Source of the DNA: Comamonadaceae bacterium
GTDB lineage: Bacteria > Pseudomonadota > Gammaproteobacteria > Burkholderiales > Burkholderiaceae_C
Length of the DNA: 42,949 nt
Direction: 5' to 3'
Assembly (NCBI GenBank): GCA_027491035.1
Contig: JAIXWZ010000003.1
Span: forward strand, 1 to 42,949
The notes under the pieces are model-generated. The model was not told the origin of the DNA. It saw only the letters and a program-made list of their open reading frames with translations, and did not search any database. Shown here piece after piece: positions 22,095 to 33,856 of the stretch; position 1 is the first letter of the stretch, and each line of letters starts with the position of its first letter. A program made the position numbers and the translations under genes.

Positions 22095-22582
22095 CTCTGA
22101 CGGATTTTGCGCACCAGGGCGGAGGTTGAATAGCCCTGCACCAGGTCGATGGCCAGGGCCCGGCCGCCATAGGCCTGCACCACCGCGCTTTCGGGCAGGC
22201 GGCTCATGTCGTAGTCGCCGCCCTTGACCAACACGTCGGGGCGCACTTGCGCGATCAGCTCGAGCGGGGTGTCTTCATCAAACCAGGTCACCAGGTCCAC
22301 CGATTCGAGCGCAGCCATCATGATGGCGCGATCGACCTCGGCATTGAGCGGCCGATCGGGCCCCTTGCCCAGCCGCCTGGCTGACGCATCGGTGTTGAGC
22401 GCCACCAGCAAGCTCGCGCCCAGGGCGCGCGCCTGCGCCAGATAGGTCACATGGCCGCGGTGGAGCACGTCGAACACGCCGTTGGTCATGACCAAGGGGC
22501 GCGGCAGCTGCGCCAGACGGGCGGGCAGCTGCTCGTGCGGGGTGATCTTGCCCAGGAAGGCCGGGGCTTGGGCGCTCGTCAC
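22091..22582 (-). CDS. rfaE2: D-glycero-beta-D-manno-heptose 1-phosphate adenylyltransferase (stand-alone HldE C-domain type)
   Basis: LVMTNGVFDVLHRGHVTYLAQARALG (HxGH), LVKGGDY; likely GTG start at 22582 overlapping the upstream TGA. Confidence 0.9.
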   Translation of the reverse strand: MTSAQAPAFLGKITPHEQLPARLAQLPRPLVMTNGVFDVLHRGHVTYLAQARALGASLLVALNTDASARRLGKGPDRPLNAEVDRAIMMAALESVDLVTWFDEDTPLELIAQVRPDVLVKGGDYDMSRLPESAVVQAYGGRALAIDLVQGYSTSALVRKIRQS

Positions 22583-23436
22583 GCGGTCTGAGCCGGGGCC
22601 GTCGGCGCCAGGCCGCCCATGAGCTGCTTGCGAAAGCGGTTGAGCTCTTGCACGGTGGCAAAGCTCTGGTTCATCAGCAAGCCCATGTTGTGCAAGATGC
22701 GCTCGACCACCTTGGTTTCCCACTCGGCGTCGAACTTGATTTGCTGGCTCAGCCAGTGCTCGAGCCACTGCGGGTCGGGCAGCCGCGACTGGATGGTGTC
22801 GCGCGGAAACAGGGCCTTGTTGACGTGCAGGTTGGTCGGGTGCAGCGCCTGGGCCGTGCGCTTGGCGCTGGCCATGAGCACGCCGACTTTGCTAAAGGCC
22901 GCGCGGGCCTCGTCGCCAAAGCGGCCGATGGCGCGTTTCATGTAGCGCAGGTAGGCGCCGCCGTGGCGCGCCTCGTCCTGGCTGAGCTGGGTGTAAATAT
23001 GCCGGATGACGGGCTCGGTGTGCCATTGGGCGGCGCGCCGGTACCAGTGGTTGAGCCGAATTTCGCCGCAAAAGTGCAGCATCAGGGTTTCGAGCGCCGG
23101 TGCCGGCTCGAACTCAAAGCGCACCTCGTGCAATTCTTGTTCCGTCGGCGCCAGCTCGGGCCGAAAGCGGCGCAGGTATTCGATCAGCACCAGCGCGTGC
23201 TTTTGCTCCTCGAAAAACCAGATCGACATGAAGGCCGAGAAATCGCTGTCTTCGCGGTTGTCGCGCAGAAACATCTCGGTGGCCGGCAGCGCCGCCCATT
23301 CGGTGATCGCATTCATCTTGACCGTCAGCGCCTGCTCGTCGGACAACAGGGTGCTGTCAAATTGGGCCCACGGAATGTCTTTATCCATGTCCCAGCGGAC
23401 GGATTCCAACTGCTTGAACAATTCAGGGTAGAGCAT
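22579..23436 (-). CDS. Ferritin-like diiron protein, acyl-ACP-desaturase-like
   Basis: candidate diiron ligand set: ATEMFL (E), FFEEQKHA (ExxH), CGEIRLNH (E), SQDEARHG (ExxH). Confidence 0.75.
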   Translation of the reverse strand: MLYPELFKQLESVRWDMDKDIPWAQFDSTLLSDEQALTVKMNAITEWAALPATEMFLRDNREDSDFSAFMSIWFFEEQKHALVLIEYLRRFRPELAPTEQELHEVRFEFEPAPALETLMLHFCGEIRLNHWYRRAAQWHTEPVIRHIYTQLSQDEARHGGAYLRYMKRAIGRFGDEARAAFSKVGVLMASAKRTAQALHPTNLHVNKALFPRDTIQSRLPDPQWLEHWLSQQIKFDAEWETKVVERILHNMGLLMNQSFATVQELNRFRKQLMGGLAPTAPAQTA

Positions 23437-23631: not shown

Positions 23632-24246
23632 ATGCATCGTTCGATCAACCGCCGGGCTGGCGCCGTGGCCGCTTCACGTGCGCTTTTGTGGGCGCCTTTA
23701 TGGGCGCTTTTATGGGCGCTGTCATCGCCTGCAGCCCACGCCCAGCCGGCCAAGGCCGACGCGCAGGCCTGCCCGCCCTTGCTGCAGCACACCATGGCGC
23801 GCTTGCAAGACGAAAAGCCGCAGTCCCTGTGCCAGTACAGCGGCAAGGTCTTGCTGGTGGTCAACACCGCCAGCTTTTGCGGTTTCACGCCGCAATATGC
23901 GGGGCTCGAGGCGCTGCATGCCCGCTACAAGGACCAGGGCCTGGTGGTGCTGGGCTTTCCATCCAATGACTTTTCTCAGGAGCGCGGCAGCAACAAGGAC
24001 ATTGCAGAGTTTTGCGAGAGCACGTTCGGCGTCAAATTTCCCATGTTCACCAAGACCGTGGTGACCGGTCGCGATGCCCATCCGTTCTACAAGCTTCTGG
24101 CCAGCCAGGCCGGTGCCGCGCCGCGCTGGAATTTCTACAAATACCTGGTCGGCAAGGACGGCAAAGTGGCCGGCAGTTACGGCTCGACCACCAGCCCCCA
24201 GGATCCTCGCCTGATCAGACAGATCGAGCAACTTGTGGCAAAATGA
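23632..24246 (+). CDS. Glutathione peroxidase family protein with signal peptide
   Basis: GKVLLVVNTASFCGFTPQYAGLEALHARYKDQGLVVLGFPSNDF; KFPMFTKTVVTG; RWNFYKYLVGKDG. Confidence 0.93.
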   Translation: MHRSINRRAGAVAASRALLWAPLWALLWALSSPAAHAQPAKADAQACPPLLQHTMARLQDEKPQSLCQYSGKVLLVVNTASFCGFTPQYAGLEALHARYKDQGLVVLGFPSNDFSQERGSNKDIAEFCESTFGVKFPMFTKTVVTGRDAHPFYKLLASQAGAAPRWNFYKYLVGKDGKVAGSYGSTTSPQDPRLIRQIEQLVAK

Positions 24247-24276
24247 CCGGCCAGTCACAATATGACTGACCAGTCG
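24244..24276. promoter_or_regulatory. Two near-identical 14-bp imperfect dyads 19 bp apart, candidate operators
   Basis: TGACCGGCCAGTCA (24244-24257) and TGACTGACCAGTCG (24263-24276). Confidence 0.5.
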
Positions 24277-24561
24277 CATCGGATCGGCCGTGCGTCGGCT
24301 CAATGGAGACCAGGATGAACCGCTCGGGTTTGAACACCGCCACCGGCATGGGGCCCTCGGGCCTGCCTGGTCGGGCCCGCGGCCCCGGCAAATCCTTGGG
24401 CCGCTCTCGGTTTTTGATGGGCTCTGAAAATACATGGTTTTCGTTGCGAAGTCTTCCGGCGCCGCATGGCCTGGTTGCAAGCCCGGGGTGTCTCTCCTCC
24501 TCCCTCCCTCCCTTCTTTGCCTCGGGACGCTTCGCAACATTTTTCTCATCGGGCGCGTGAG

Positions 24562-25968
24562 ATGGGCCTCGACCTGCTCATGCGCTCAGGCTTGCCAACG
24601 GCCGCTCAACCGAACGGGGCTGGCCAGCCGCGGGTGGCCATCGTTGGCTCGGGCATTGCTGCCTTGGCAGCGGCCCACCACCTTCGCGGGCAGGCCCGGC
24701 TGACCCTGTTCGAGGCGGCCGACTACTTTGGCGGCCACACGCACACGGTCGACGTCACCTTGCCCAGCGCCCAGGGGCCAGTCACCCACGGGGTCGACAC
24801 CGGCTTTCTGGTCTTTAACGAACGCACCTACCCCCAGCTGATCGCTCTGTTTGAGGAGCTGGGCGTGCCCACCGCCCAATCGGACATGTCGTTTTCGGTG
24901 CAGGCACCGGCGACGGCCGTGCGGGCCGCCTTGGAGTGGAGCGGCTCGAACCTCAACACCGTGTTTGCGCAGCGCAGCAACCTCTTGCGGCCTGGCTTTT
25001 GGCGCATGCTCGCCGATATCGTGCGCTTTAATCGCCTGTGCACCGCCCTGGCGCAGCGCCTGGAGGGCGCGGCCGGCGATGCCCGCTTGATGCAGCCGCT
25101 GTCGCAGTTCTTGCGCGAGCAGGGCCTGTCCGATGGTTTTCGCGATGGCTACCTGCTGCCCATGCTGGGGTGCATCTGGTCCTGCCCGACCGACCAGATG
25201 CTGCAGTTTCCGCTGGCCACCATGCTGCGCTTTTGTCATAACCACGGCCTGCTGCAGATCACCGGGCGGCCGCAGTGGTGGACCGTCGCCGGTGGCGCGC
25301 GCGGCTATGTGCACAAAATCACGGCTGGCATCGAGGACAAGCGGCTGTCCAGCCCGGTGCTGCTCGTTGAGCGCGATGCGGGCGGCGTGCGCATCACCAG
25401 CCGGCGCAACGGCCAGCTGCACAACGAATCGTTTGACAAGGTGATTCTGGCGGGCCATTCGGACCAGAGCCTGGCCCTGCTCAGCCAGCCCTCGCCGGCC
25501 GAGCGTTCGGTGCTGGGCGCCATCGGCTACCAGCCCAACCGGGCGGTGCTGCACACCGATGCATCGGTGCTGCCCAGCCGTCCACTGGCTTGGGCCGCCT
25601 GGAACTACGAGCGTGCCGCCGACACCGGGCAGGAGTCGGCGCGGGTGTGCCTGCATTACCTGCTCAACAAGCTCCAGCCCCTGCCCTTCGAGCAGCCGGT
25701 CATCGTTTCGCTCAATCCGATCGGCCCCATCGACCCGGGCCAGATCATCGGCCAATACGACTACGCCCATCCTGTCTTTGACGCCGCCGCAATCGCAGCG
25801 CAGCAGCAGGTGCCGGCCTTGCAGGGGCAGCAGCACAGCTACTTTTGCGGTGCCTGGGCGGGCTATGGGTTTCACGAGGACGGCCTCAAATCAGGCGTGC
25901 AGGCGGCCACGCGCTTGCTCGGCGACTGGGCGGCGCAGACCCGCCCGGCCTTGCGGGCCGCCGCATGA
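24562..25968 (+). CDS. FAD-dependent oxidoreductase (amine-oxidase/desaturase-like)
   Basis: PRVAIVGSGIAALAAAHHLRGQARLTLFEAADYFGGHTHTVDV (Rossmann/FAD), FLVFNERTYPQLIALFEELGV. Confidence 0.92.
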   Translation: MGLDLLMRSGLPTAAQPNGAGQPRVAIVGSGIAALAAAHHLRGQARLTLFEAADYFGGHTHTVDVTLPSAQGPVTHGVDTGFLVFNERTYPQLIALFEELGVPTAQSDMSFSVQAPATAVRAALEWSGSNLNTVFAQRSNLLRPGFWRMLADIVRFNRLCTALAQRLEGAAGDARLMQPLSQFLREQGLSDGFRDGYLLPMLGCIWSCPTDQMLQFPLATMLRFCHNHGLLQITGRPQWWTVAGGARGYVHKITAGIEDKRLSSPVLLVERDAGGVRITSRRNGQLHNESFDKVILAGHSDQSLALLSQPSPAERSVLGAIGYQPNRAVLHTDASVLPSRPLAWAAWNYERAADTGQESARVCLHYLLNKLQPLPFEQPVIVSLNPIGPIDPGQIIGQYDYAHPVFDAAAIAAQQQVPALQGQQHSYFCGAWAGYGFHEDGLKSGVQAATRLLGDWAAQTRPALRAAA

Positions 25969-26774
25969 ACGGCCGGGCGGCCCAGCTTGCGGCGCTGCTG
26001 GACGCGCCCACCGACGTGCCGCCCGCGCAAGCCCTGATCGGGTTTGGCCAGGTGCGCCACCAGCGCCTGCGGCCGGCCGGCCACGCTTTTGCCTACCCGA
26101 CCGCGTTTTTGATGCTGCCCTTGCGCAGCCTGCGCGCGCACGGCAGTGGCGCTTTGGCGCGCAACCGCGCCGCGATGCTGAGCTTTCACGACCGCGACCA
26201 CGGTCAGGGCGGTGACGACTGCCTGGCCTGGCTCGACGAGCTGCTTGCCTCGCAGGGGCTCAGCGCCCCCGGCGAGGTCTGGTTGCACACCTATCCGCGC
26301 ATGTTCGGCTACACCTTCAAGCCGGTGAGCTTTTGGTACTGCCACGGTGCGGACGGCGCGCTGCGAGCGATTGTGGTGGAGGTCAACAACACTTTTGGTG
26401 AGCGCCACTGCTATTTGCTCGATGCGCCGCGCTACGGCCATGTGCTCGAGGCGGCCAAGGCCTTTCATGTCTCGCCCTTTTGCCGCGTCGAGGGTCGCTA
26501 CCGCTTTGCCTTCATGCGCACCGAGCGCGACGGGCGCGAGCGCACCGTGGCGCGCATCGACTACGACGATGACCAGGGCCCGCTGCTCAAGACCAGCGTG
26601 GCGGGCACGCTCGAGCCCCTGAACCGACGCAGCGCGCGGCGGGCGCTGATCGCTTACCCAGCCATGACGCTGGCCGTGATGGCGCGTATCCACTGGCAGG
26701 CGCTCAAGCTCTGGCTCAAGCGTGTGCCCTTCTTTTCCAAACCTCAGCCACCCAAGCAATTCCTGACGCGATGA
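25965..26774 (+). CDS. DUF1365 domain-containing protein
   Basis: GQVRHQRLRPAGHAFAYPTAFLMLPL; HTYPRMFGYTFKPVSFWYCH; VVEVNNTFGERHCYLL; ATGA overlap with upstream gene. Confidence 0.93.
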   Translation: MNGRAAQLAALLDAPTDVPPAQALIGFGQVRHQRLRPAGHAFAYPTAFLMLPLRSLRAHGSGALARNRAAMLSFHDRDHGQGGDDCLAWLDELLASQGLSAPGEVWLHTYPRMFGYTFKPVSFWYCHGADGALRAIVVEVNNTFGERHCYLLDAPRYGHVLEAAKAFHVSPFCRVEGRYRFAFMRTERDGRERTVARIDYDDDQGPLLKTSVAGTLEPLNRRSARRALIAYPAMTLAVMARIHWQALKLWLKRVPFFSKPQPPKQFLTR

Positions 26775-28015
26775 ACACGGCCACCGACTCTACCCCTACG
26801 ACCGCCGCCCTGGGCTTGCCCGCAGGCGCGCCCGCGGCGGCACGCACCGTGCTCCAATTGCTGACTCGCCTGCGCCATGGCTGCCTGAGCGTGCGCTTGC
26901 CCGACGGCTCCATGCGCCGCTTCGGTCAGGGCCAGACGCCCACCGCCAGCTTGCACCTCAACGACTGGCAGGTGTGCTCGGCCGCCCTCAAATCGGGCGA
27001 CATCGGCTTTGCCGAGGGCTATATCGATGGCCATTGGAGCTCGCCTGACCTGGCGGCCTTGCTGCGCCTTTTCATTGCGAACCGGCGTGAGGTCGAAGAT
27101 GTGATCTACGGCACCTGGCTGGGCCGGCTCTTTTATCGCGTGCGCCATCTGCTCAATCGCAACACCCGAGGCAACAGCCAGAAAAACATCCACGCCCACT
27201 ACGATTTGGGCAATGCTTTCTACGAGCTGTGGCTCGACGGCACCATGAACTACAGCTCGGCCCTCTACGAGACGCCGCAGGCCTCGATGCAACAGGCGCA
27301 ACTGGCCAAGGTGCGGCGGGCGCTGCGCATGGTCGATGTCAAGCCCGGCGAGCGCGTGCTGGAAATCGGTTGCGGCTGGGGGGCGCTGGCCGAGATGGCC
27401 ACCACCGAGTTTGGCGCCCGCTTGGTCGGCGTGACCCTGAGCACCGAGCAGCTGGCCTGGGCGCGCGCGCGCATGTCGCGCTGCGGCGTTGCCGAGCGAG
27501 CCGATCTGCGCCTGCAAGACTACCGCGACATCGGCCGCGATGGCCTTGCCGATCAGTCGTTCGATGCGATTTGCTCTATTGAGATGATCGAGGCGGTCGG
27601 GCGCGAATACTGGCCCACCTACTTCGCCACCGTGGCGCGTCTGCTCAAGACGGGCGGCCGCGCCTGCATCCAGAGCATCGTGATCGACGACGAGTTTTTC
27701 GAGCGCTACCTGCAGTCGACCGACTTCATTCAGCAGTACATCTTTCCGGGCGGCTGCCTGCCCAGCCCGGGCGCTTTCAGGGCGCAAGCCGAGCAGGCTG
27801 GGCTCAAGGTGATCGACGAGTTTTGCTTTGGCCAGGACTATGCCCGCACCCTGCAAGAGTGGCGCCAGGCCTTCATGGCACGCGAGCATGAGGTGCTGGC
27901 GCTGGGCTTTGACCGTCGATTCATGCGCATCTGGGAGTTTTATCTGGCCTATTGCGAGGCCGCCTTTGCCGAGCGCAACACCGACGTGGTGCAGTACACG
28001 CTGCTCAAGGTGTGA
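26771..28015 (+). CDS. Cyclopropane-fatty-acyl-phospholipid synthase family methyltransferase
   Basis: HYDLGNAFYELWLDGTMNYSSALYE; VLEIGCGWGALAEMA; SIEMIEAVGREYWPTYF; QQYIFPGGCLPSP. Confidence 0.95.
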   Translation: MNTATDSTPTTAALGLPAGAPAAARTVLQLLTRLRHGCLSVRLPDGSMRRFGQGQTPTASLHLNDWQVCSAALKSGDIGFAEGYIDGHWSSPDLAALLRLFIANRREVEDVIYGTWLGRLFYRVRHLLNRNTRGNSQKNIHAHYDLGNAFYELWLDGTMNYSSALYETPQASMQQAQLAKVRRALRMVDVKPGERVLEIGCGWGALAEMATTEFGARLVGVTLSTEQLAWARARMSRCGVAERADLRLQDYRDIGRDGLADQSFDAICSIEMIEAVGREYWPTYFATVARLLKTGGRACIQSIVIDDEFFERYLQSTDFIQQYIFPGGCLPSPGAFRAQAEQAGLKVIDEFCFGQDYARTLQEWRQAFMAREHEVLALGFDRRFMRIWEFYLAYCEAAFAERNTDVVQYTLLKV

Positions 28016-28032
28016 GTCTCAAGAGCCCATCC

Positions 28033-28581
28033 ATGACCCTGATCCGCTGGCCCATCCTGCTGGCTTTGTTGCTGGCCCTCGTGCTGCCCGTCCAGGCCCA
28101 GCGCTCGGCCGCGCCGGTGCCGCCCGAGCTTGCGCAGGCCGAGCTGGTGCCGCGCGGCCAGGCGCGCTTGCGGGTCTGGGGCTTTGAGGTTTATGACGCC
28201 AGCTTGTGGAGCAGCCCGGGCTTTGCAGCCGATGCGTTTGATGCGCAGCCGCTGGCGCTGGAGCTGCGTTACCTGCGCGATTTTTCTGCGCAGGACATCG
28301 CGCAGCGCTCGCTCAAGGAAATGCAGCGCCAGGGCGCCCTCAAGCCCGAGCAGGAAAAGCGTTGGCTTGGCGAGATGCTGCGCGTGTTTCCCGACATCCG
28401 AAAAGGCGACCGGCTGCTTGGCTTGCACCGCCCGGGACAGGGGGCGGTGTTCTGGTTCAACGGCCAGCCCCGTGGCGAAATCCGCGACACCGACTTTTCG
28501 CGGCTGTTTTTTGGCATCTGGCTGTCGCCGCGCACCTCCGAGCCTGCCCTGCGAAGCGCTTTGCTGGGCAGCGCCCCATGA
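28033..28581 (+). CDS. Chalcone-isomerase-like periplasmic protein
   Basis: signal peptide; ARLRVWGFEVYDASLWSSPGF; ALELRYLRDFSAQDIAQRSLKEMQRQG. Confidence 0.85.
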   Translation: MTLIRWPILLALLLALVLPVQAQRSAAPVPPELAQAELVPRGQARLRVWGFEVYDASLWSSPGFAADAFDAQPLALELRYLRDFSAQDIAQRSLKEMQRQGALKPEQEKRWLGEMLRVFPDIRKGDRLLGLHRPGQGAVFWFNGQPRGEIRDTDFSRLFFGIWLSPRTSEPALRSALLGSAP

Positions 28582-29867
28582 CGGCAGCGCTCGGCCGGCG
28601 CAATGCCATGCTCTATGGCCTGCTGGGGCTGCCGCTGGCCTTTGCCGCGCTGCCTTTGTATGTGATCTTGCCCAACCACTACGCGCGCGAGTTTGGCGTG
28701 CCCCTGGCGGCCCTGGGCGCGGTGCTGCTGGCGGCCCGGCTGCTCGATGCGCTGCTTGACCCCTGGCTGGGACGGCTGACCGATCGCCTGCTGCAGCGCA
28801 GCCCGCACGTGCTGCTGCGCTGGGGCGCGCTGGCCGCAGCGTTGCTGGCCGCGGGCATGGTGCTGCTGTTTTTCCCCGATCGGCTTTTGCAAGCCCCCCA
28901 GACCGCAGACCTGCTGGTGTGGGCGGCCGTCATGCTCGTTGTCACCTATCTGGGCTACAGCCTGCTGAGCATTGCCCACCAAGCCTGGGGCGCCCTGCTG
29001 GGCGGCGATGAGACCCAGCGCAGTCGCATCACCGGCGTGCGCGAAGGCTTTGCCTTGGTTGGCGTGTTGATCGCTTCGGTGCTGCCGGGCTGGCTGGGCC
29101 TGCCCACAGCCATGGCGGTGTTCACGGCCTTTTTGCTGCTGGGCTGGTGGAGCTGGCGCGCGAGCCTGCCTCCGCCGGCCCCCCAGTTAGAGGGGGCAGC
29201 TGCCCCCTCGGTTTGGCTGCCTCTGCGCGAGCCGTGTTTTCGGCGTCTGCTGGCGGTCTTTATGCTCAACGGCATCGCCAGCGCCGTGCCGGCCACCTTG
29301 GTGTTGTTTTTCGTGCAGGACCGGCTGCAGGCGCCCGCTGCCATGGAGCCGGCCTTCCTGGGCAGCTACTTTCTCAGTGCCGCGCTGTCCATGCCCCTGT
29401 GGCTGGCCGCGGTCAAGCGTTGGGGCCTGGAGCGCAGCTGGCTGGCGGGGATGCTCGCCTCGGTGGGCCTGTTTGTCGGCGCGGCCCAGTTGTCCACGGG
29501 CGACACCACCGCCTTTTTGTGGATCTGCATCGGCTCGGGCCTGGCTTTGGGCGCCGACCTGGCCTTGCCCGGCGCCTTGCTGGCCGGCATGATTTCGCAC
29601 AGCAGCGCCGGTGCGCGCCTGGCCGGCGCCTGTTTTGGTTGGTGGAACTTTGCCGCCAAGCTCAACTTGGCGCTGGCCGCCGGCCTGGCCCTGCCTCTTT
29701 TGCAATGGCTCGGCTATGCGCCGGGCGTGCGCGAACCCCAGGCGCTGCAAGCGTTGACCTGGGCCTACTGCCTTTTGCCCTGTTTGCTCAAGCTGCTGGC
29801 CGCTTTGGCCTTGTATCTTGCCATCATGCGTGCCGGCTTGCGGCCGGCTTGGGAGAACCGTTCATGA
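28578..29867 (+). CDS. MFS transporter (GPH/MelB-like family)
   Basis: about 12 hydrophobic segments; LLAARLLDALLDPWLGRLTDR; ATGA overlap with upstream gene. Confidence 0.88.
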   Translation: MTAALGRRNAMLYGLLGLPLAFAALPLYVILPNHYAREFGVPLAALGAVLLAARLLDALLDPWLGRLTDRLLQRSPHVLLRWGALAAALLAAGMVLLFFPDRLLQAPQTADLLVWAAVMLVVTYLGYSLLSIAHQAWGALLGGDETQRSRITGVREGFALVGVLIASVLPGWLGLPTAMAVFTAFLLLGWWSWRASLPPPAPQLEGAAAPSVWLPLREPCFRRLLAVFMLNGIASAVPATLVLFFVQDRLQAPAAMEPAFLGSYFLSAALSMPLWLAAVKRWGLERSWLAGMLASVGLFVGAAQLSTGDTTAFLWICIGSGLALGADLALPGALLAGMISHSSAGARLAGACFGWWNFAAKLNLALAAGLALPLLQWLGYAPGVREPQALQALTWAYCLLPCLLKLLAALALYLAIMRAGLRPAWENRS

Positions 29868-30427
29868 CTCTTCGATCCTTTTTTGTCCGCGCCTGGGCCT
29901 GGCTGGCTGGCGCCTTGCTCGTGCTGGGCCTGTCGGGCTGCGCCGGCCCGCAACTGTCCGACCATGCCAAAGACCTGCCGCGGCTCGATTTGCGCCAGTA
30001 CTTCAACGGCACGCTCGATGCCTATGGCATCTTCACCGACCGATCGGGCAAGGTGGTCAAGCGCTTTACGGTGCTCATGAAGTGCAGCTGGAGCGGGCCT
30101 GCCGGCCAGGAGACGGGCGTGCTCGATGAAGAGTTCACCTACTCCGACGGCACGCGCGAGCGCCGCGTCTGGACCTTGCAGCGCACGGCCGATGGCCGTT
30201 ATGTGGGCACCGCTGCCGATGTGGTCGGTCAGGCGCTGGGGCAAGAAAGCGGCAACGCCTTTCGTTTTGGCTACACGCTCAAGTTGCCGGTTGACGGGCG
30301 CACCTACGAGGTGCAGTTCGACGACTGGATGTACCTGATGGACGAGCGGGTGATGCTCAACAAGGCGCAGATGAGCAAGTTTGGCATTCGCCTCGGTGAG
30401 GTCACCTTGTCTTTCGTCAAGCGCTGA
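29864..30427 (+). CDS. DUF3833 family lipoprotein
   Basis: lipobox LGLSGC; LDLRQYFNGTLDAYGIFTDRSGKVVKRFTV; FDDWMYLMDERVMLNKAQMSKFGIRLGEVTLSF; ATGA overlap. Confidence 0.9.
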   Translation: MTLRSFFVRAWAWLAGALLVLGLSGCAGPQLSDHAKDLPRLDLRQYFNGTLDAYGIFTDRSGKVVKRFTVLMKCSWSGPAGQETGVLDEEFTYSDGTRERRVWTLQRTADGRYVGTAADVVGQALGQESGNAFRFGYTLKLPVDGRTYEVQFDDWMYLMDERVMLNKAQMSKFGIRLGEVTLSFVKR

Positions 30428-30448
30428 GCCGGTGCGGGTTCTTTGCTG

Positions 30449-31222
30449 ATGTCACACAACCCACCGATCGCCCACTGGCCCGGCAAGACCGTCTGGCTCG
30501 TTGGGGCCTCCAGCGGCATAGGCCTGGCCACGGCGCAGGCCTTGCATGGCCTGGGCGCCCAGGTGGTGATTTCGGCGCGTCAAGCGCCGCTGCTCGACGC
30601 ATTTTGCGCCGCCCATGCGGGCGCCGTTTCTTGCCCGCTCGATGTCACCGATGCGCAGGCGGTGCAAGCGGCCGCCGGCGCTCTGCTCGAGCGCGGCCCG
30701 ATCGACATGGTGGTGTACTGCGCCGGCCACTACAAGGCCCAGCGCGGCTTTGATTTCACGCTCGAGGAGTTGCTGCGCCACCAGCAGATCAACTACGTGG
30801 GCGCGCTGCATGTGATGGCGGCCACTTTGCCGGCCATGCTCGCGCGCGGCAGCGGTCACTTCAGCCTGATTGCCAGCGTGGCCGGCTACCGCGGCCTGCC
30901 CAAGAGCCTGGCCTACGGCCCAACCAAGGCGGCCCTGATCAATCTGGCTGAAAGCCTCTACGGCGACTTGCAGCCCAGAGGCATCGGCGTGAGCCTGGTC
31001 AACCCCGGATTTGTGCAAACGCCGCTGACGGCGCAAAACCGCTTTCACATGCCCGCCCTTATCACGCCCGAGCAGGCGGCCAGCGCCATGCTCGAGGGCT
31101 GGCGGCGCGGCGCTTTCGAGATCCACTACCCCAAGCGCTTTACCCGCTGGATGAAGCTGCTCGGCGCGCTGCCCTATGCCGCGTACTTGCCGTTGGTGGT
31201 GCGCATGAGCAAGGAGCCCTGA
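30449..31222 (+). CDS. Short-chain dehydrogenase/reductase
   Basis: KTVWLVGASSGIGLATAQAL; YGPTKAALINLAESL (YxxxK). Confidence 0.93.
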   Translation: MSHNPPIAHWPGKTVWLVGASSGIGLATAQALHGLGAQVVISARQAPLLDAFCAAHAGAVSCPLDVTDAQAVQAAAGALLERGPIDMVVYCAGHYKAQRGFDFTLEELLRHQQINYVGALHVMAATLPAMLARGSGHFSLIASVAGYRGLPKSLAYGPTKAALINLAESLYGDLQPRGIGVSLVNPGFVQTPLTAQNRFHMPALITPEQAASAMLEGWRRGAFEIHYPKRFTRWMKLLGALPYAAYLPLVVRMSKEP

Positions 31223-31224
31223 GG

Positions 31225-31662
31225 ATGCAGGAGATGGCCGAGCGCACCGAGGCCGTGGTGCATTTTTTCGAGAACCTGCAGCGCAGCGAGCTGTCGCGCC
31301 TGGGCCAGATTTACGCGCCTCAGGCGCGCTTCAGGGACCCCTTCAACGAGGTGCAGGGCGTCGCGCAGATCGAGGCGATCTTCCAGCACATGTACCGCTC
31401 GCTCGAGCAGCCGCATTTTTACGTCACCGAGCGGGTGATGCAGGGGCGGCAGTGCTTTTTGGTGTGGGATTTCCGCTTTCGCTTCCAGCGCTTTTCGCCC
31501 GCGCAGTGGCAGACGGTGCACGGCAGCTCGCACCTGCGTTTTGACGACCAGGGGCTCGTCGAGTACCACCGCGACTATTGGGACGCGGCGCAAGAGCTGT
31601 ACGAAAAGCTGCCGGCCGTCGGCTCCTTGATGCGCTGGCTGCGGCGCCAGGCCATGCGCTGA
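31225..31662 (+). CDS. SnoaL/NTF2-like protein
   Basis: YAPQARFRDPFNEVQGVAQIEAIFQHMYRSLEQPHFYVTERVMQGRQCFLVWDFRF; two bp after SDR stop. Confidence 0.85.
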   Translation: MQEMAERTEAVVHFFENLQRSELSRLGQIYAPQARFRDPFNEVQGVAQIEAIFQHMYRSLEQPHFYVTERVMQGRQCFLVWDFRFRFQRFSPAQWQTVHGSSHLRFDDQGLVEYHRDYWDAAQELYEKLPAVGSLMRWLRRQAMR

Positions 31663-31684: not shown

Positions 31685-32299
31685 TCAGGCCGGCGCGGTG
31701 TCGATAAAGCTCGGGCGCTGGCTCAGCTTGTCTTGCAAGCGCGCCAGATTGGGGTGACGCGCGCGCCAGTCGATATGGGCAAAGCGCAGGTCCAGATAGG
31801 CCAGGGCGCAGCCCACGGCGATGTCCGACAGGCTCAGGTGCACCCCGCTGCAAAACGGCTTGTCACCCAGCCCGGTGGACATGGCTTGCAGGGCCGAGTC
31901 GACCTTGGCCATCTGGCGATCGATCCAGGCCTGGCTGCGCTGGCCCTCAAGCCGGCCGGCCCAGGAAGCCTCCAAGCGCGCGAGCACGCAGGCATCGAGC
32001 ACGCCGTCGGCCAGCGCTTCCCAGGTTTTGACCTCGGCGCGTTCGCGGCCGCTGGGCGGGATCAGCTTGCCCACGGGCGACAGTGCATCGAGGTATTCGA
32101 CGATGACGCGCGAGTCGAACACCGCCTCGCCGCCTTCCATCACCAGACAGGGCACCTTGCTCAGAGGGTTGGACAGCGCGATCTGGCTGTCTTTGGCCCA
32201 GACGTCTTCGACAACGAATTGGTAGTCGAGCTTTTTCTCCGACATCACGATGCGCACTTTGCGCACATAGGGGCTGGTGAGGGAGCCGAGAAGTTTCAT
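31685..32299 (-). CDS. Glutathione S-transferase family protein
   Basis: MKLLGSLTSPYVRKVRIVMSEKKLDYQFV; NPLSKVPCLVMEGGEAVFDSRVIVEYLD. Confidence 0.93.
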   Translation of the reverse strand: MKLLGSLTSPYVRKVRIVMSEKKLDYQFVVEDVWAKDSQIALSNPLSKVPCLVMEGGEAVFDSRVIVEYLDALSPVGKLIPPSGRERAEVKTWEALADGVLDACVLARLEASWAGRLEGQRSQAWIDRQMAKVDSALQAMSTGLGDKPFCSGVHLSLSDIAVGCALAYLDLRFAHIDWRARHPNLARLQDKLSQRPSFIDTAPA

Positions 32300-32308
32300 G
32301 GTGTCTGA

Positions 32309-33856
<1,548 letters not shown>

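Follow-up and report, generated by a model that had tools for sequence, protein, structure and literature searches.

Furan fatty acids are made by ufaD-ufaO-ufaM in Rhodobacter sphaeroides and Rhodopseudomonas palustris, and in 2020 genetics and biochemistry assigned UfaD as the desaturase, UfaO (DUF1365) as the oxygenase and UfaM as the methyltransferase (PMC7380195). The three enzymes act on phospholipid acyl chains and are encoded by ufaM and the RSP1091-1087 operon (ufaD-ufaO) in R. sphaeroides, and by RPA2569-2571 in R. palustris. The R. sphaeroides operon holds additional genes that furan formation does not need, since deletions of RSP1087-1089 left the fatty acid profile unchanged (PMC7380195); the operon described below likewise extends beyond the core. 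In Halomonas the trio genes are consecutive, with UfaM activity. Similar FAD oxidoreductase, SDR and UfaM/Cfa-type genes are present in Shewanella SO_3386-SO_3374, in the Vibrio cholerae VC1118-VC1122 region and in Pseudomonas LitR regions, and these homologous operons belong to light, singlet-oxygen or oxidative-stress regulons and have phrB nearby (PMC4336711, PMC5241685, PMC9758184).

We analyzed a 42,949-nucleotide stretch of a Comamonadaceae bacterium genome (the window). ORF and junction analysis revealed eight contiguous genes on one strand (+) at 24562-31662, and a Pfam match was obtained for all eight families:

24562..25968 (alternative start 24580), + strand: ufaD, predicted FAD-dependent fatty acyl desaturase (Pfam Amino_oxidase/NAD_binding_8; gene order; PMC7380195)
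25965..26774, + strand: ufaO, predicted DUF1365 furan-forming oxygenase (Pfam DUF1365, 275 bits)
26771..28015, + strand: ufaM, predicted SAM-dependent fatty acyl methyltransferase (Pfam CMAS)
28033..28581, + strand: chalcone-isomerase-like (CHI-like) protein with a signal-peptide-like N-terminus (Pfam Chalcone_3)
28578..29867, + strand: MFS_2 transporter, MFSD2A/MelB-type cation symporter (Pfam MFS_2; profile matches; RxxDAxxDP motif)
29864..30427, + strand: DUF3833 lipoprotein, lipocalin-like barrel in the model (Pfam DUF3833; lipobox Cys)
30449..31222, + strand: SDR oxidoreductase (Pfam adh_short)
31225..31662, + strand: SnoaL/NTF2-like protein (Pfam SnoaL_2)

An earlier note on this DNA had described eight unidirectional, tightly coupled genes with four ATGA overlaps. 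The ORF, junction and Pfam analyses agree with that description, and the overlaps were recovered at exactly the same positions (25965, 26771, 28578 and 29864); the three remaining junctions have gaps of 17, 21 and 2 nt. The synteny search across Burkholderiales that the note had proposed found the eight-gene set, with its order unchanged, in 52 of the 61 named Comamonadaceae-type loci whose flanks were long enough, and in 21/34 loci of other Burkholderiales families. Since the genes are kept in order in so many loci, the arrangement is far from chance, and we conclude that the window carries a conserved bacterial operon of eight genes. The trio of DUF1365, FAD oxidoreductase and CMAS methyltransferase was never separated in the loci examined, and the other five genes, the companion module, are near-completely co-conserved with it. 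Among 120 Burkholderiales genomes, DUF3833 was present in 41 and DUF1365 in 52, and all 41 fall within the 52 (hypergeometric p 3e-22, a value that is overstated because the genomes are related). A strict coupling of DUF3833 to DUF1365 was ruled out, because Klebsiella plasmids carry DUF3833 without DUF1365.

The operon contains genes of the three enzyme families of the UfaD-UfaO-UfaM pathway, and genes 1-3 match the ufaD-ufaO-ufaM trio; this assignment is based on protein family, gene order and published work rather than on a tree. The structure model of UfaO has a pLDDT of 92, and a search for a solved-fold relative of DUF1365 found none. The earlier suggestion of a phospholipid acyl-chain oxidation/methylation pathway was correct in kind but lacked the specific pathway, furan fatty acid synthesis; the accompanying statement that the pathway was not resolved does not hold for the core, which is known (PMC7380195), and stands for the other five genes. 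When the methyltransferase was classified with HMMs, as had also been proposed, it showed a CMAS domain and scored far below the cut-offs of all curated Cfa models (285/600, 246/400 and 219/650 bits, score/cut-off).

The MFS_2 protein matched the profiles of MFSD2A (E 3.6e-31) and MelB (E 8e-26), and in the cation motif of the family, RxxDAxxDP, the R and both D residues are invariant. Its similarity to the lipid symporter MFSD2A is no weaker than that to sugar carriers. The lipobox Cys of the DUF3833 protein is invariant, and its model (pLDDT 94, with fold matches in the PDB) points to a lipocalin-like lipoprotein. A sequence search for a solved-fold relative of the CHI-like protein found none. 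The envelope export or maturation branch put forward in the earlier note would fit the folds, the signal peptides and the lipobox, and the five companion genes most likely handle envelope lipids that carry furans or have been oxidised. The R. sphaeroides counterparts of three of them are dispensable for furan formation (PMC7380195).

Two other readings of the gene set were considered. The methyltransferase could produce cyclopropane or simple methyl-branched fatty acids, with the FAD and DUF1365 proteins engaged in another reaction, and the locus would be a cyclopropane-type stress operon. This is consistent with the CMAS domain and with the cyclopropane synthase annotation of the V. cholerae and Shewanella homologues. 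Among the Cfa bicarbonate-site residues C139, E239, H266, I268 and Y317, UfaM keeps E, I and Y and carries C to S and H to Q changes, both of which are shared by cotton cyclopropane synthases; hence the active-site residues were withdrawn as proof of a non-cyclopropane product. However, Gln occupies the E. coli His266 position in 39/39 operon copies, whereas both solved Cfa enzymes aligned have His, every curated Cfa cut-off is missed by far, and the constant partner, DUF1365, is a demonstrated furan-forming enzyme (PMC7380195). We regard a cyclopropane-type operon as very improbable. It is somewhat less doubtful, but still rather unlikely, that the pathway leads to a further product, with the SDR, SnoaL and CHI-like proteins modifying the furan chain or what arises from its oxidation, and the MFS protein acting as exporter: the eight genes stay together across families, and a transporter and periplasmic lipid-binding-type folds are among their products, but loss of RSP1087-1089 altered no fatty acid in R. 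sphaeroides (PMC7380195), and the literature examined holds no report of export or of a modified product. Furan fatty acid synthesis, accompanied by an envelope-lipid module, is the reading that we retain.

The earlier claim that related clusters occur with ECF sigma/ChrR regulators holds in annotated records: Azospirillum has both an ECF sigma factor and ChrR, and Pseudoalteromonas has ChrR. Homologous operons adjoin ChrR, ECF sigma, MerR and photolyase genes. The genome to which the window belongs, whose assembly is about 90% complete, yielded neither ChrR nor an RpoE-ChrR control as in R. sphaeroides; the sole Cupin_7 match, a dioxygenase-like cupin, belongs to an unrelated catabolic operon. 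Unlike in the gammaproteobacterial operons, no photolyase adjoins the operon, and the Pseudoalteromonas operon has DUF2878 where the window has the MFS gene, and its SDR/NTF2 genes come first. In contrast to R. sphaeroides, ufaM lies inside the eight-gene operon together with CHI-like and SnoaL genes, and, unlike in R. sphaeroides and R. palustris, a leader RNA and a tandem operator candidate are present upstream:

23632..24246, + strand: gpx, glutathione peroxidase with a signal-peptide-like N-terminus, a neighbour outside the core operon (Pfam GSHPx)
24245..24275, no strand assigned: tandem near-palindromic operator candidate GACCGGCCAGTCacaatatGACTGACCAGTC (matrix matches)
24443..24550, + strand: conserved structured RNA, candidate sRNA and operon 5′ leader (covariation, distribution)

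The RNA and the operator lie just upstream of the interval covered by the earlier note and are absent from it. In 36/61 close relatives gpx is located at most 2.5 kb upstream of ufaD. The operator matrix, which was built partly from its own matches (15 of the 43 operon-locus matches were used), matched upstream of ufaD at 43/115 operon loci, versus 1/21 loci that have the RNA but no operon. This tandem palindrome after gpx, possibly the site of a TetR-type repressor, probably controls the operon.

The RNA folds into a three-way junction with a CUCC-repeat loop and a 3′ stem followed by a terminator-like U-run. Compensatory changes were observed at 21/23 pairs, and the CUCC loop is present in 80/80 copies, with a side hairpin also conserved. 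In the window the 3′ end of the RNA lies 11-29 nt before ufaD, and at 45 distinct loci the in-frame ufaD starts are mostly 9-55 nt past it. The RNA was found in 110/151 family genomes, at a fixed synteny even without the operon (anchor gpx-RNA-(operon)-GST-purB). Its retention in 29 genomes that lack DUF1365 makes it probable that the element is an sRNA gene in its own right, which also forms the 5′ leader of the operon. A GGAACTT-type promoter box precedes it in most relatives and is missing in the window. An RpoE promoter was dropped as the identity of this box, the motif upstream of 20 rpoE loci being not beyond chance, and the presence of RpoE gave no clear split between RNA-positive and RNA-negative genomes. 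The stem and U-run, and the position directly after gpx in many genomes, would also suit a mere transcription terminator of gpx that has no function as RNA. This is improbable, because 64/75 loci have a GGAAC promoter box after gpx and before the RNA (7.4 in shuffles), the RNA is kept at loci where gpx was not found upstream, and the long CUCC loop and conserved side hairpin are superfluous for termination.

An RNA that is both sRNA and leader has a counterpart in UpsM, a 5′-UTR-derived sRNA from the dcw cluster of R. sphaeroides. UpsM ends at an intrinsic terminator immediately ahead of an operon that lacks space for a promoter of its own, so that read-through is needed (PMC5089854). The element described here likewise ends in a terminator-like stem directly before the operon and leaves no space for another promoter, and transcription from upstream would have to read through it to reach the operon. 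It differs from UpsM in its unrelated structure and taxon and in persisting without the operon. The CcsR RNAs of Rhodobacter are CCUCCUCCC-motif stress RNAs. They have in common with our RNA a CCUCC-type anti-Shine-Dalgarno-like loop and a stress context; however, ours has one reported copy per genome, a three-way junction and a GGAACTT-type rather than an RpoH-type promoter, and homology to CcsR is not indicated. Bordetella S17 was ruled out as its identity, since S17 sits by coq7 and is related to bdhR1. Rfam gave no match above the gathering score, literature searches found no report of the RNA, and the element is apparently new to description.

The locus as a whole is best explained as a furan fatty acid operon with an envelope-lipid companion module, operator control and an sRNA-type leader with read-through (probability about 0.8). 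By analogy with the characterized enzymes, UfaM would methylate the cis-vaccenoyl chain of a phospholipid, UfaD would desaturate this chain to give a methylated conjugated diene, and from the diene UfaO would form the furan by inserting O2-derived oxygen; in the membrane the furan would scavenge reactive oxygen. A cation symporter, a secreted CHI-like protein, a lipocalin-fold lipoprotein and two soluble enzymes would serve envelope lipids. The structured RNA would lie within the 5′ leader of the operon, both here and in many relatives, and transcription from upstream would pass its terminator-like stem. The analysis shows the content, order and conservation of the genes and the structure, position and distribution of the RNA, whereas the chemistry in this organism, the role of the companion module, transcription and read-through are inferred. 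More tentatively, and with the odds somewhat against it, the RNA may be the first described of a Comamonadaceae-type family of sRNAs, with an ECF-sigma-type promoter responding to envelope stress and a CUCC anti-Shine-Dalgarno loop silencing mRNAs, where terminator read-through would couple the adjoining furan fatty acid operon to the same stress signal. If so, one transcript would have two outputs wherever the operon lies directly behind the RNA.

The core pathway is already known, and the leader RNA is apparently the new part. What had been an unresolved pathway now has a specific predicted product in Comamonadaceae, furan fatty acids. The remaining puzzle is isolated: across proteobacteria five companion genes travel with the pathway, yet three further genes in the operon of R. 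sphaeroides are dispensable for furan formation. The RNA family, with its clear structure, promoter box and syntenic anchor, is a candidate stress sRNA for environmental Burkholderiales, and its arrangement with the operon lets sRNA-terminator gating of a lipid-protection operon be probed directly.

The operon at 24562-31662 consists of the eight plus-strand genes described in the earlier note: ufaD, ufaO (DUF1365), ufaM (CMAS), and the CHI-like, MFS_2, DUF3833, SDR and SnoaL genes. A Pfam search confirmed the family of each, and ORF and junction analysis the gene order and the four ATGA overlaps (at 25965, 26771, 28578 and 29864). The arrangement is strongly conserved. A synteny check across Burkholderiales, suggested in that note, found the complete set, in unchanged order, in 52 of the 61 close relatives with enough flank (among them Polaromonas, Rhodoferax, Acidovorax, Hydrogenophaga, Ramlibacter and Curvibacter) and in 21 of 34 loci of other families; the Azoarcus operon is identical in order. 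DUF3833 was present in 41 of 120 Burkholderiales genomes, all within the 52 that carry DUF1365, a co-occurrence whose p value overstates independence, the genomes being related. The features surrounding the operon are as follows.

22579-23436, minus strand, ferritin-like/AurF-like diiron protein
23632-24246, plus strand, gpx
24245-24275, tandem near-palindrome, candidate operator, between gpx and ufaD
24443-24550, conserved structured RNA element
31685-32299, minus strand, GST, downstream of the operon
32342-33856, plus strand, purB, downstream of GST

In 14 loci of other families a homologue of the diiron protein is encoded 3-5 kb ahead of ufaD, and in operon-less loci homologues adjoin gpx.

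By family, gene order and literature, the first three genes would encode UfaD, UfaO and UfaM. The R. sphaeroides proteins turn cis-vaccenate into 11Me-12t-18:1, 11Me-10t,12t-18:2 and the furan 9M5-FuFA, whose furan oxygen derives from O2, and the R. palustris trio suffices in a triple mutant (PMC7380195). In Halomonas the three ufa genes are consecutive, and its UfaM produced 11-methyl-octadec-12-enoate in E. coli (PMC12089945). Profile scoring placed the window methyltransferase far under the curated Cfa cut-offs. At the position of E. coli His266 it has Gln, a residue shared by all 39 aligned operon copies; at that of Cys139 it has Ser, and most copies there have either Ser or Ala. The low scores and these substitutions appear to set it apart from Cfa. 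The active-site residues leave the product undecided, because cotton cyclopropane synthases show identical changes at both positions (PMC3132707). The UfaO model was good (pLDDT 92), and a structure search with it found no solved fold relative. Divergent loci with ufaD-ufaO-ufaM-like genes alone, lacking the last five genes (the companion module), were also observed (L048, L049, L050, L058 and L067); four of them also encode a second CMAS paralogue, whose residue at the His266 position is His.

The operon belongs to an already known kind, and the view that its pathway is unresolved holds for the companion module only, the core chemistry being largely explained by the literature. Single deletions of RSP1087, 1088 and 1089 left R. 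sphaeroides fatty acids unaltered (PMC7380195); hence the companion genes, likened to these as further operon genes and not family by family, probably act elsewhere than in furan formation, e.g., in transport, turnover or repair. The evidence obtained here is structural, and suggests lipid handling in the envelope. The CHI-like protein has a signal-peptide-like N-terminal stretch. The lipobox of DUF3833 (LSGC) contains an invariant cysteine, and the protein was modelled with high confidence as a lipocalin/FABP-like barrel (pLDDT 94). The MFS profile match to MFSD2A, a lysophosphatidylcholine symporter (E 3.6e-31), was slightly better than that to melibiose carriers (E 8e-26); the RxxDAxxDP cation motif is retained, and conservation does not extend to the MelB FGKDFA segment. 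In Pseudoalteromonas, DUF2878 takes the place of the MFS gene. On Klebsiella plasmid pKPN-332 (L225, 7941-9448), DUF3833 is followed by a DUF523/DUF1722 gene between insertion sequences, without DUF1365; 95 Klebsiella plasmid records have similar DUF3833 matches.

In the literature, operons of this kind are assigned to regulons for light or oxidative stress. The association of related clusters with ECF sigma/ChrR stated in the earlier note was seen in Azospirillum (ECF sigma/ChrR) and Pseudoalteromonas (ChrR and photolyase); the Azoarcus operon adjoins a MerR gene. Neighbours in other Burkholderiales families include a MerR/B12-binding (LitR-type) regulator, a photolyase-related protein, FolE2, photolyase and a divergent TetR protein. 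We hypothesized that TetR could bind the candidate operator at 24245-24275. A matrix built from 15 near-palindrome sites had matches ahead of ufaD at 43 of the 115 operon loci, those 15 included, and in 1 of 21 RNA loci without a downstream operon. On a separate contig, C56 (L224:3655-4332, plus strand), the window's genome encodes a homologue (48% identical) of the TetR protein that stands divergently next to ufaD in other families; the end of a histidine kinase gene overlaps its gene there.

Upstream comparison revealed the element at 24443-24550. It folds into a three-way junction, GUUGCGAAG...CUUCGCAAC, with two hairpins inside, one variable and one with a CUCC/CCUCC-run loop; a U-run comes after the junction. 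In a first alignment of 36 sequences, whose outer stem was partly fixed by the search pattern, 11 of 23 pairs showed compensatory changes, matched by 0 of 500 shuffles. A second alignment, of 80 covariance-model matches among which the stem varies too, gave compensatory changes in 21 of 23 pairs, with 95% of cells paired (36-47% in slid controls); being fitted to the model, this alignment is biased in its favour. CCUCC or CUCCU is present in every one of the 80. No Rfam family scored above its gathering score.

Under strict filters, which weaker copies could escape, the model had one reported match in each of 110 genomes, out of 151 in the window's family, and no match in the genomes sampled from other families. 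The RNA lies 1320-1561 bp upstream of DUF1365 on the same strand, directly before ufaD, in 54 genomes, and elsewhere in 27; 29 have it without DUF1365. Most of 21 operon-less loci examined keep the order RNA, GST, purB, often with gpx upstream. GST and purB, after the operon or, where it is absent, after the RNA, mark a fixed chromosomal anchor. In one such locus (L210, genome G250) the sole gene between RNA and GST is an SDR sharing about 60% identity with the operon SDR, likely a relic of a lost operon.

Of 75 distinct loci, 64 have a GGAAC box ahead of the RNA, against 7.4 in shuffles; its commonest distance is 64-85 nt, and a CTCxA-like box follows after some 16 nt. RpoE comparisons across genomes assigned no sigma factor to the GGAAC box. 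In the window, GGAAC is absent before the RNA (24340-24443), and no sigma factor of its genome, in an assembly about 90% complete, exceeded the RpoE cut-off; box and RpoE-type factor were possibly lost together. The first in-frame ufaD start codons fall mostly 9-55 nt downstream of the RNA (45 distinct loci; 11 or 29 nt in the window), a gap so short that it leaves no room for another promoter. The simplest reading is that the RNA is a predicted stand-alone sRNA gene doubling as operon leader, an arrangement comparable to that of UpsM in R. sphaeroides (PMC5089854). This RNA is the most novel element at the locus.
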